Virus record (IMG/VR): IMGVR_UViG_3300046171_000385
Location: 1 to 38,266 of that record
Origin: a virus
Reading direction: 5' to 3' (one strand)
Length of the DNA stretch: 38,266 bases
Below are positions 5,399-7,669 of the stretch, one piece after another. The notes below the pieces were generated by a model. The model was given only the letters and a program-made list of their open reading frames with translations, searched no databases and had not been told where the DNA came from. Position 1 is the first letter of the stretch, and every line of letters begins with the position of its first letter. Made by a program: the position numbers and the translations under genes.

Positions 5399-5435
5399 TG
5401 GTTCTCTCCGTTGCAGGGGGATGCATTGGAGATCA

Positions 5436-5464
5436 CTTTAACTACGCAAAATGCGTATCGTCAA
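5436..5464 (-). promoter_or_regulatory. Leftward early promoter (PL-like)
   Basis: On the minus strand, TTGACG (5464-5459), a 17-base spacer and TTAAAG (5441-5436) form a sigma70-type promoter about 40 bases upstream of the first leftward gene. The spacer contains the palindrome TACGCA-TTT-TGCGTA, so a bound repressor would sit directly between the two promoter boxes. This is visible in sequence; activity is inferred. Confidence 0.75.
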
Positions 5465-5514
5465 CACTTAAAATAAACAATACGCGTAGTTTTCAGATTA
5501 GCAGTTTGCGACTC
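5441..5514. promoter_or_regulatory. Left operator region (OL-like): one full and two partial repressor sites
   Basis: The main site at 5441-5459 has arms TACGCA and TGCGTA around AAA. A second match, TACGCGTAGT, lies at 5481-5490, with half-site ACTACGC on the opposite strand. A degenerate third match, AGCAGTTTGCGACT, at 5500-5513 shares its core with the right operator (CGCAGTTTGCG). The same arms recur next to the repressor gene about 2 kb away, which is why these are called operators for that repressor. Confidence 0.7.
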
Positions 5515-5551
5515 ATCTGCCTGCTTGGGGTATGTGGTGGCGATACTACAC

Positions 5552-5574
5552 AAAAAAACCCGCCGGAGCGGGTT
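5552..5574 (-). terminator. Rho-independent terminator of the repressor/accessory operon
   Basis: Read on the minus strand, AACCCGC, loop TCCG and GCGGGTT are followed by an uninterrupted T run. The stem is 7 bp with a 4-base loop (5574-5557) and the T run is the complement of 5558-5552. It lies 33 bases past the stop of the 244-residue gene and before the leftward promoter, so it separates lysogenic from lytic leftward transcription, as t-imm does in lambda. Confidence 0.85.
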
Positions 5575-5606
5575 CTGTCGTTCGATCCACAATACGGATG
5601 GTTTTG

Positions 5607-6341
5607 TTAGGCTGCAGCGAGTTTGAAGACCTCTATATCGTCTTCCTCTCCAATCACTCTCGCTACTTCTCGGATCATCTGGGCTTTTGGGTCGAGATTT
5701 TTGGTGTTGGGGAAGACGGCATGCAGCGCGACGTCAGATCGACGTCCCAAGTCGGAAAACATGAGGAACTTTGCCGACACCGAGCCTGAGTGATTTGCAA
5801 CCGGCTCGAAAATCAGTTTCCGGTTGTTATGGAGGTCCACGACATTGTGAACTTCCCAGTCAGCTCGTTCTCCGTGAATTGAGATTTCTCGATGCACAGT
5901 TGCGTCTGGGAACGCCATTCTAACCCTATTGTAGACAAACTCTTTCCGTTTACCCTCTCGGCGTCCAGCATCACTTAGAATTGCCGATGCGGCTGACTTT
6001 GCGGAGGCGTTCGCAACAGCGATGAGGCCGGCGGCGAGTGATCCGATTGGCAATTCAATCGCAAGAACTGCGTGGCCATCGAATTTGAGGCCGTGTCGAC
6101 GCGCCTCTAACTCAGCAATCTTCCGGTAGCCTGTATCTGGGCAAAGCTGCTCTGACTCCCAAAGCCCCATGCCCATATCAGAAATCAATGCTTCGCGCTT
6201 GCCAATCGAAACCTCCATGGTTGTCAGCGCGCCGCTTGGGTACTGCACTGGAAGAGATACAAGCTGACGTTCCCCTTCTGCCCAAGTGAAGGTGATGCCC
6301 TTAAGCGCTTCATTTGCAATTTGCTCAATCCTGCTGGTCAC
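5607..6341 (-). CDS. DUF1828/DUF1829-like protein, second gene of the immunity-region cassette
   Basis: A 244-residue protein. Residues 25-65 (SLPVQYPSGALTTMEVSIG, then LISDMGMG) match my memory of DUF1828, a short beta-rich domain ending in an LSDxG turn. The C-terminal part from about 130 (EFVYNRVRMAFPDATVHREI through ISIHGERADWEV and FEPVANHSG) resembles DUF1829. A short hydrophobic stretch (SLAAGLIAVANASA) joins them. Its start overlaps the upstream gene as ATGA, and a terminator follows the stop. It lies between the repressor and the leftward promoter, so it is probably expressed from the prophage. In lambda this place is held by rexA-rexB. An exclusion or defence role is inference; family assignment is moderate. 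Confidence 0.75.
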   Translation of the reverse strand: MTSRIEQIANEALKGITFTWAEGERQLVSLPVQYPSGALTTMEVSIGKREALISDMGMGLWESEQLCPDTGYRKIAELEARRHGLKFDGHAVLAIELPIGSLAAGLIAVANASAKSAASAILSDAGRREGKRKEFVYNRVRMAFPDATVHREISIHGERADWEVHNVVDLHNNRKLIFEPVANHSGSVSAKFLMFSDLGRRSDVALHAVFPNTKNLDPKAQMIREVARVIGEEDDIEVFKLAAA

Positions 6342-6835
6342 AGAAGCATTCCTTGTTCCGGCATCGGTGGTAATTCCGGCGGTCGTTCGATGTTGGTCTT
6401 ATCACAGAAATAATCAAGTGCGTCATGAAATCCTGAAAGGCTGGTAGCCAAGGGTCTGGCAAACTTTGACGGGTCCCTGTCATCAATTCGATCCCGAAAA
6501 TCGTGTTCATGACTTTCTCCGGGGCGAAACAATCGTCCGCTGTCTGGGTCGCCGTTTTTAAGTGGGTTGGCGTGTGGTCCAGTTGGGTTTAGGTCGAGCG
6601 CATAAATTCGGTCTCTTTGTCTGATGCCTGGCCTGCCGAGCAGAAGCGTGTATGAAATTTTATCATGTGATCCTGAGGATGCCCTAATGCACATGGTCAG
6701 AAGGTTTATTTTCGCGTGCATGGCATCGAAGCTGCACGTTATCAAGCGAGCGCCGTTATCTTCTCCCCACTCTCCTATGGCTATTGTTTTTCGAGTTCCA
6801 AATAGCGCTGTTGCAAGTTCCTCGTTGAAAATCAC
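6338..6835 (-). CDS. DUF6978-like protein, first gene of the immunity-region cassette
   Basis: A 165-residue protein whose central motif RIYALDLNPTGPHANP, followed by GESHEHDFRDRIDD, resembles the (D/N)xNxxxHxNPDG...HxH pattern I associate with DUF6978, a family found beside DUF1828 proteins. The His/Asp-rich motif could bind metal. The gene starts with GTG at 6835 and has no strong ribosome site, so the true start may lie elsewhere. It is coupled to the next gene by ATGA. Together the two genes form a cassette between repressor and terminator. Function unknown; toxin-antitoxin or superinfection exclusion are the likeliest guesses from position. Confidence 0.7.
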   Translation of the reverse strand: MIFNEELATALFGTRKTIAIGEWGEDNGARLITCSFDAMHAKINLLTMCIRASSGSHDKISYTLLLGRPGIRQRDRIYALDLNPTGPHANPLKNGDPDSGRLFRPGESHEHDFRDRIDDRDPSKFARPLATSLSGFHDALDYFCDKTNIERPPELPPMPEQGMLL

Positions 6836-7086
6836 ACTCGGCCCGCCGCTTCTCTAGTCGCGGGGGGCTGAGCTCGAGAGATGTGGTTCAACCAGGGGTT
6901 TGAGATACCGCACTCGCTACCTTGACCCGACTCAACCCTTCCGACAGTGTGAACGGATCGTGAACATAAGGGTGGGTTATGGTCTGGGACGAGGACGCTG
7001 AAGTATTGAGGTTGCTCAAGAGTGCGCGCAGAAAGTCCGGACTGCCGCTCGACTTCTGGGCGGATCTTACGGAGGGATTGCCTCAT
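6832..7086 (-). CDS. Doubtful 84-aa ORF between repressor and cassette
   Basis: An ORF starting at an ATG that overlaps the repressor stop (ATGA) and ending in a stop that overlaps the GTG of the next gene (GTGA). The spacing is what an operon gene would show, but the predicted protein (rich in Pro, Ser, Arg and Cys) does not look folded and matches nothing I know. The opposite strand carries a more protein-like 59-codon ORF at 6979-7158. The stretch may simply be a leader or spacer. Confidence 0.3.
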   Translation of the reverse strand: MRQSLRKIRPEVERQSGLSARTLEQPQYFSVLVPDHNPPLCSRSVHTVGRVESGQGSECGISNPWLNHISRAQPPATREAAGRV

Positions 7087-7358
7087 AGCTCTATCGCTAT
7101 CCTGTGTGGAAGGTCAGATTTAATCCCGAAGTACGTAAACTCCAATGGTATCGAGTAGGTCTTTCGTAACTGTTTGGCTACGGACAGGGGTAGATCTCGC
7201 CTGCCGTTCTCGTACTCACCCCACGATTGAGGCGACATGTCGAGCCTGGAAGAAAAGTCCTTCTTATTCAGGCCGGAAATTTCCCTGATGCGCTGAAGGC
7301 GAGCGCTTACTGCCTCGCGTGCATCCTCCTGATCTTCAAGCACAACAACCTCCATCAT
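7083..7358 (-). CDS. XRE-family HTH repressor (CI/C2-like)
   Basis: A small repressor of about 91 residues with a canonical XRE helix-turn-helix: ARLQRIREISGLNKKDFSSR, then LDMSPQSWGEYENGRRDLPLSVAKQL. It has no C-terminal peptidase domain, so induction cannot rely on LexA-type self-cleavage. The start is uncertain. Tandem ATGs at 7358 and 7355 leave almost no leader after a -10 box (TAATAT, 7374-7369), while an in-frame GTG at 7343 has GGAGG five bases upstream. It is transcribed away from the Cro-like gene, with operator sites between. It is inferred to bind the TACGCA/TGCGTA palindromes and hold both early promoters off. Confidence 0.85.
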   Translation of the reverse strand: MMEVVVLEDQEDAREAVSARLQRIREISGLNKKDFSSRLDMSPQSWGEYENGRRDLPLSVAKQLRKTYSIPLEFTYFGIKSDLPHRIAIEL

Positions 7359-7368
7359 GGTTGTAGCG

Positions 7369-7374
7369 ATATTA
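7369..7374 (-). promoter_or_regulatory. -10 box of the repressor promoter (PRM-like)
   Basis: TAATAT on the minus strand, 10 bases before the repressor's ATGATG. The -35 region is weak (ATGCAG, 17 bases upstream) and abuts the degenerate operator at 7397-7414. This is the arrangement expected if bound repressor activates its own weak promoter. Predicted, not shown. Confidence 0.5.
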
Positions 7375-7396
7375 GATAAACAGGTTGAAAACTGCA

Positions 7397-7439
7397 TTCA
7401 GTGAAATGCGTATTGACCAAACTACGCAGTTTGCGTAGT
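7397..7439. promoter_or_regulatory. Right operator region (OR-like)
   Basis: A perfect palindrome ACTACGCA-GTT-TGCGTAGT (8-bp arms, 3-base centre) occupies 7421-7439. A second, half-conserved site ending AAATGCGTAT lies at 7397-7414, with a degenerate left arm. The strong site fills the spacer of the rightward promoter and the weak one faces the repressor promoter, so the two could switch between states as in lambda. The arms match the left operator. Confidence 0.8.
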
Positions 7440-7441
7440 AG
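7413..7441 (+). promoter_or_regulatory. Rightward early promoter (PR-like)
   Basis: TTGACC (7413-7418), a 17-base spacer and TAGTAG (7436-7441). The predicted start of transcription, about seven bases past the -10, coincides with the ATG at 7448, so the Cro-like message may be leaderless. The strong operator overlaps the spacer and -10. Confidence 0.65.
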
Positions 7442-7447
7442 TGTGAT

Positions 7448-7669
7448 ATGGAACATATTTCGCATATCTGGCCTACGATGGCCGACCTGGCGGCTGACTT
7501 AGGTAAGCCATATCCAACTGTCGCAGCTTGGAAGCAGAGAGGGCGTATCCCTGCGGATTACGACTTCGACCTGATTGAAGCAGCATCAGCAAGGGGAAAG
7601 ATCCTTACCCTTGAGGATTTGGCGCGGGCTCGCCGCACCCCTACGTCGGCTCCCTCGGACGCCGCCTGA
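7448..7669 (+). CDS. Cro-like carph-isopro-type HTH regulator
   Basis: A 73-residue helix-turn-helix protein: IWPTMADLAADLGKPYPTVA followed by AWKQRGRIPADYDFDLIEAA. The last part is the WxxRGxIPxxYD signature of the carph-isopro/YdaS-like domain common in alphaproteobacterial prophages. Divergent from the repressor and first on the rightward transcript, it holds the place of lambda cro and probably binds the same palindromes. No Shine-Dalgarno sequence precedes its ATG, in keeping with the leaderless promoter geometry. The C-terminal dozen residues are disordered. Confidence 0.8.
   Translation: MEHISHIWPTMADLAADLGKPYPTVAAWKQRGRIPADYDFDLIEAASARGKILTLEDLARARRTPTSAPSDAA

Follow-up and report, generated by a model that had tools for sequence, protein, structure and literature searches.

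Does the two-gene cassette between the repressor gene and the leftward terminator of a temperate phage encode an undescribed defence against other phages? The window, IMG/VR virus record IMGVR_UViG_3300046171_000385 at its full 38 266 nt, belongs to a temperate phage of alphaproteobacterial type, with the host inferred from relatives. An original prediction, made from the letters alone, saw here a DUF6978-like and a DUF1828/DUF1829-like gene in the place where lambda keeps rexA and rexB, and proposed them as a candidate anti-phage pair. We examined the locus, its relatives and their neighbourhoods.

Two coupled genes are indeed present. Gene A (6338..6835, minus strand; ORF of 165 aa, GTG start) carries an HxN...HxH motif and lies upstream of gene B (5607..6341, minus strand; ORF of 244 aa, GTG start), which it overlaps by 4 nt. 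Beyond B, a hairpin with a T-run (5555..5576, minus strand) forms an intrinsic terminator that closes the repressor-side unit. The repressor gene itself, in a CI-like position (7083..7397, minus strand), encodes a 104-aa HTH protein without an S24 peptidase domain. On the minus strand the order is therefore repressor, a 250-bp gap, A, B and the terminator at 5576..5555. The span originally cited, 5552-6835, holds both ORFs where they were said to be but omits the gap, where there is a LexA box as well as a small ORF in antisense orientation.

Palindromes of the form CTACGCA-N3-TGCGTA occur in the window at two places only, with up to two mismatches allowed and a chance expectation of 0.67. The first, the OL-like operator CTACGCAAAATGCGTA at 5442..5457, overlaps a predicted leftward promoter (5464..5435); the second, the OR-like operator CTACGCAGTTTGCGTA at 7422..7437, lies between the repressor and a cro-like gene (7448-7669). 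The operator pair brackets the cassette and repressor block as OL and OR do in lambda, whose layout is cI-rexA-rexB-timm-OL. The rexAB-like position was thus called correctly, the cassette being co-oriented with the repressor and its terminator falling just before the OL-like operator and leftward promoter; the lambda-type layout is one of positional analogy only.

A sister phage, IMGVR_UViG_3300032081_000786 (L002), has both genes (68% identity to the window in A, 91% in B) and keeps the terminator. Since dN/dS between the two phages is 0.07 for A and 0.03 for B, with synonymous change near-saturated, A and B are real genes under strong purifying selection. The same figures, together with intact coupling, terminator and reading frames, make it very improbable that the cassette is a remnant or selfish passenger with no current function in the window phage, even though degraded copies exist elsewhere (L042 and L028). 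By blastn, homology between window and L002 runs from 5549 to 6967, covering the terminator, B, A and the stretch up to the LexA box; none was found at 5434-5548, which holds the left operator, nor at 6968-7656, which holds the small ORF, the repressor, the right operator and cro. L002 has its own operator, GTACAT-N4-CATGTAC, in both operator places. Immunity specificity has been exchanged on both flanks of a kept cassette, and the comparison amounts to a natural experiment in which repressor, cro and both operators were swapped and the cassette was retained.

Family membership required profile comparison. As a single sequence in hmmscan, A matches DUF6978 (PF22398) with E=0.016 and 15.9 bits, under the gathering cut-off of 29.6 bits, and B has no Pfam match, the cut-offs of DUF1828 and DUF1829 (PF08861/PF08862) not being reached. 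The best relative of A reaches E=4.5e-5 against DUF6978, and the best values in the B family are E=0.0035 for DUF1828 and E=0.01 for DUF1829. Family profiles built from alphaproteobacterial A-B loci, aligned by hhalign, match the canonical families well: A to DUF6978 over 137 columns (probability 87.6, E=3.5e-6) and B to the two-domain DUF1828-DUF1829 over 236 columns (probability 98.6, E=8.9e-16), with control pairings at E 0.05 or worse. Because of these profile matches the family guesses hold as remote relationships, although neither protein would be assigned on its own: the comparison confirms A as a remote relative of DUF6978 and B as one of DUF1828-DUF1829.

No PADLOC 2023 model matched A or B, profile searches of the PDB returned nothing credible for either, no nuclease or methylase domain was detected in the two proteins, and B has no recognised HTH. 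B has one hydrophobic stretch (KD 2.07) that contains Glu and Pro. AlphaFold models computed from two-sequence alignments had pLDDT of 35 and 36 and were unusable for fold searches. We considered A as a TumE-type toxin (PF20126) and dropped this reading at hhalign E=0.057 and 0.067 with probability about 1%; a single weak lead to TumE came from one haloviral DUF6978 protein (E=0.0028). A simple catalytic motif in A is argued against because the DUF6978 proteins of two Streptococcus phages, Javan197 and Javan642, lack the HxH, their GNHIHIY having become GNRINIF. These two proteins (L060 and L061), with RIN in place of the otherwise conserved HIH, are possibly inactive or diverged effectors. 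On a Staphylococcus delphini plasmid, the annotation gives a 79-aa piece of DUF6978 at a locus (L066, 4482-4976) where a longer open frame fits the family.

In the library of papers searched, three name DUF1828 or DUF6978, none of them in its title or abstract. The claim that neither family has an established function needs updating as regards DUF1829: in DS-6/HipAD, a validated system against phages (PMC13092281), the antitoxin-like half has the architecture DUF3037-DUF1829. Its partner is a HipA-like kinase and not a DUF6978 protein.

Whether A and B travel together was examined in genomes. A first scan with query A1 found no relative, and tblastn of the window proteins against phages and plasmids found only one distant plasmid prophage, of Pseudochrobactrum, in which the A-B pair adjoins the S24 repressor. 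An Asticcacaulis MAG provided the route into a search of 385 alphaproteobacterial genomes, 11 of which had B relatives. Three were set aside (a false match, a locus truncated where its contig stops, and a remnant close to such an end), and in all eight that remain an A gene lies directly upstream of B and overlaps it. The reverse search with A returned the same eight of 385 genomes, plus one marginal match judged false; these positives match by construction, while the absence of credible A elsewhere in the 385 genomes does not. Two hits of the profile searches were taken as false positives, G012 and G301, the latter an AAA ATPase as judged by eye from its sequence. Among 398 Pseudomonadota genomes, DUF1828 exceeds its cut-off in 10. 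At 9 of the 10 loci it is preceded by an A-like gene, and six of these nine had supplied seeds for the profile; at the tenth, an in-frame stop follows the start of the candidate A gene. Co-occurrence of the two families, on which the original prediction had staked itself beforehand, was found, A and intact B sharing one set of eight genomes among the 385.

Canonical pairs show the same arrangement. In each of the nine phage regions that were opened, DUF6978 immediately precedes DUF1828/1829: Lactobacillus phage Lj965, Staphylococcus phages phiSP119-3 and 37, Latilactobacillus phage P3, Streptococcus phages MissF, Javan197 and Javan642, the satellite Javan357 (unannotated in that record) and Halorubrum virus Humcor1; plasmid pRSB223 has it too. 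Six of these (Lj965, phiSP119-3, 37, MissF, Javan197 and Javan642) share the order repressor, zero to four genes, DUF6978, DUF1828, zero to two genes, integrase. This position is the lysogeny module, which bears out the expectation that the pair would recur in immunity or lysogeny regions of other prophages, here of Lactobacillus, Staphylococcus and Streptococcus.

The pair also moves outside phages. In G380, A, B and an IS1595-family transposase lie between terminal inverted repeats in two copies of ~2.43 kb that are 99.8% identical over 2451 bp and are flanked by 8-bp target duplications, TTTCTCGA and TAACTCTA. A similar IS1595-family element in G061 has repeats flanking A-B-transposase, and in G026 an IS1595-family transposase adjoins A-B. 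That A and B form a genuine two-gene module, and a mobile one, we regard as close to certain. Of the two G380 copies (L021, 8969-11402, and L022), one is inserted upstream of a gene whose protein has a DGQQR motif, DUF262-like by eye, and probably splits that gene.

Two small coupled genes with strict co-occurrence, co-transcribed as far as their overlap indicates, would fit a type II toxin-antitoxin (TA) system, and pure addiction is an explanation that we weighed: A would be a toxin and B its antitoxin, kept because they stabilise a prophage, transposon or restriction-modification (R-M) island and giving no protection against phages. Transposons, for instance those of the Tn3 family (PMC7157771), are known to carry TA modules as passengers, and plasmid and R-M contexts would suit one. 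The decay also leans toward loss of A before B, broken A with intact B having been seen at 2 loci and broken B with intact A at 0 of 24. The effector-first order and the 244-aa partner are, however, unusual for type II TA. The repeated slot between repressor and integrase favours defence: lysogens of the S. aureus phage 80alpha transcribe the lysogeny module from the cI promoter, and this transcript includes tha, a gene with a proven role in defence (PMC11087260). So does a location inside R-M operons, and on balance we think pure addiction unlikely.

These R-M contexts were found for three loci. The pair is nested in hsdS-DUF6978-DUF1828-Abi_C-hsdR (L077, in G357); a canonical pair is embedded in an operon that also encodes HsdM, HsdR and a fusion of HsdS with a nucleotidyltransferase (L079, in G613); and another canonical pair is beside an MmeI-like enzyme (L078, in G441). 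The few kb read around chromosomal copies L020, L024, L025, L026 and L006 contained no evident defence genes. From context, A-B is likely a defence module; the pair stands as an anti-phage candidate on its R-M operons, Abi_C neighbour and transposon cargo, but with no detected homology to RexA or RexB. The three R-M loci are composite defence operons worth cataloguing in their own right.

Nesting in type I R-M operons and the neighbouring MmeI could also point to a non-abortive system, in which A-B would attack incoming DNA itself, or assist or neutralise restriction, and leave the host alive; metal binding by the HxN/HxH motif is conceivable. R-M genes are missing beside most of the alphaproteobacterial and phage copies, though, and the searches described above detected no nuclease or methylase domain, so that we give this alternative a low probability, a shade under that of addiction.

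The 250-bp gap holds a second layer. A LexA motif of alphaproteobacteria, GTTC-N7-GTTC (PMC8565304), is found at 6951..6965 (minus strand) within a block conserved in L002 and L074. The motif occurs in the repressor-to-A gap of the window, L002 and L001, with a chance of about 0.6-0.7% per gap, the window and L002 boxes not being independent. A match to the pattern at L076 consists of just the 21-bp motif within an apparent methyltransferase gene and was taken as chance. The promoter-like block CTTGACC...GTGTGAACGGATCGTGAACAT (6921..6967, plus strand) points away from the cassette, and L002 homology stops exactly at 6967. Beyond it begins a small divergent ORF of 59 aa (6979..7158, plus strand), antisense to the 3′ end of the repressor gene and without a Pfam or PHROG match. 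The corresponding regions are 6921-7158 in the window, 7202-7391 in L002, 445-621 in L074 and 4990-5302 in L001. Spacing from box through SD to the ATG start, 11 nt in both the window and L002, is 15 nt in a third phage, L074. The small ORF of L074 resembles that of L002.

We had considered the LexA box as a switch of the cassette itself and downgraded this idea, since conservation of the block in two sister phages breaks off at the box and its direction is toward the small ORF antisense to the repressor; upstream of most chromosomal A-B copies the box is absent. The predicted box most likely drives the small antisense gene. ORF and promoter block, both predicted, are conserved in the sister phages, which suggests that phages whose repressors are short and of non-S24 type have an undescribed antirepressor induced by the SOS response; the gene may also, or instead, be an off-switch for the cassette. 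SOS-induced antirepressors are a known phage strategy (PMC9437464). An antirepressor matched to its repressor would fit because the window and L002 differ in their small proteins as they do in their repressors. From the ORF and promoter block, the arrangement repressor-[antisense gene]-A-B would fit a noncontiguous operon like cI-ith-tha.

The box raises a further alternative, that A-B is a regulator of lysogeny, aiding the repressor, superinfection immunity or integration, or serving as an SOS-induced antirepressor itself. The pair adjoins repressor and integrase genes, and a LexA box is upstream of it in three phage-type loci. Yet A-B was kept while repressor, cro and operators were swapped, the conserved LexA promoter block points away from A, and the pair is also transposon cargo and part of R-M operons, far from phage switches; at L001, the neighbouring gene is annotated as an S24 repressor, of the self-cleaving type, which would need no antirepressor. 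We consider this regulatory role improbable.

Our preferred reading, which we hold with somewhat better than even confidence, is that A-B works as a self-contained two-component module of TA or abortive-infection type, spread horizontally, aimed at mobile genetic elements and carried by the prophage as an accessory defence. In the mechanism we infer, A, DUF6978-like with its HxN...HxH, would be the effector, and B, with its DUF1828-DUF1829 architecture, would bind A, silence it and couple it to an infection cue. This assignment of effector and controller or antitoxin is a working guess from the thin decay bias and the DUF1829 domain in HipAD, and the reading of A as a toxin is a weak one. The lysogen would make A and B on the repressor-side transcript ending at 5555; infection by another phage would free A, which would stop the cell or the incoming phage. 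At the prophage's own induction, LexA cleavage would unblock the 6921-6967 promoter and let the small gene be read antisense to the repressor, and transcription of repressor, A and B would fall, as proposed here by likeness to cI, ith-1 and tha-1 of 80alpha.

A wider proposal is more tentative, and we put it at somewhat less than an even chance: that DUF6978-DUF1828/1829 is an undescribed two-protein anti-phage family, spread over Proteobacteria, Firmicutes and haloarchaeal viruses in phages, IS1595 transposons and R-M operons, and that here it is wired to the SOS response by a LexA-controlled antisense gene through which the prophage silences its own immunity at induction. If A-B protects lysogens, unannotated families in phages from Staphylococcus to Halorubrum gain a function, and PADLOC 2023 misses the pair. 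The antisense gene with its LexA box offers a clean test of a prophage evading its own immune system at induction.

Several known systems are comparable. Like lambda rexA-rexB, A-B is downstream of and co-oriented with the repressor and ends at a terminator just before OL/PL; B, however, is unlike the multi-pass membrane protein RexB, and no Rex family appears among the Pfam and PHROG matches of A and B at E<=1, a comparison at the level of family matches. TumE-TumA (PMC10584680) is also a small two-gene module, with a superficially similar D...H.H signature, but the profile-profile E of about 0.06 gives no support and its partner protein is unrelated to B. DS-6/HipAD (PMC13092281) shares with A-B the two genes and a DUF1829 domain in the second protein of the system; it joins a HipA-like kinase to DUF3037-DUF1829, whereas A-B joins DUF6978 to DUF1828-DUF1829. 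Tha/Ith of 80alpha (PMC11087260) has an accessory gene on the cI transcript and a small antisense gene within the unit, a layout that the window may share. Tha, however, is of HEPN type and Pith-1 fires constitutively, where the window has a pair of unrelated proteins and a promoter with a LexA box. The canonical pair of Firmicutes phages has the same order, coupling and lysogeny-module position as A-B, and both proteins are detectably homologous; the window pair differs in falling under Pfam thresholds and forms a distinct alphaproteobacterial branch.
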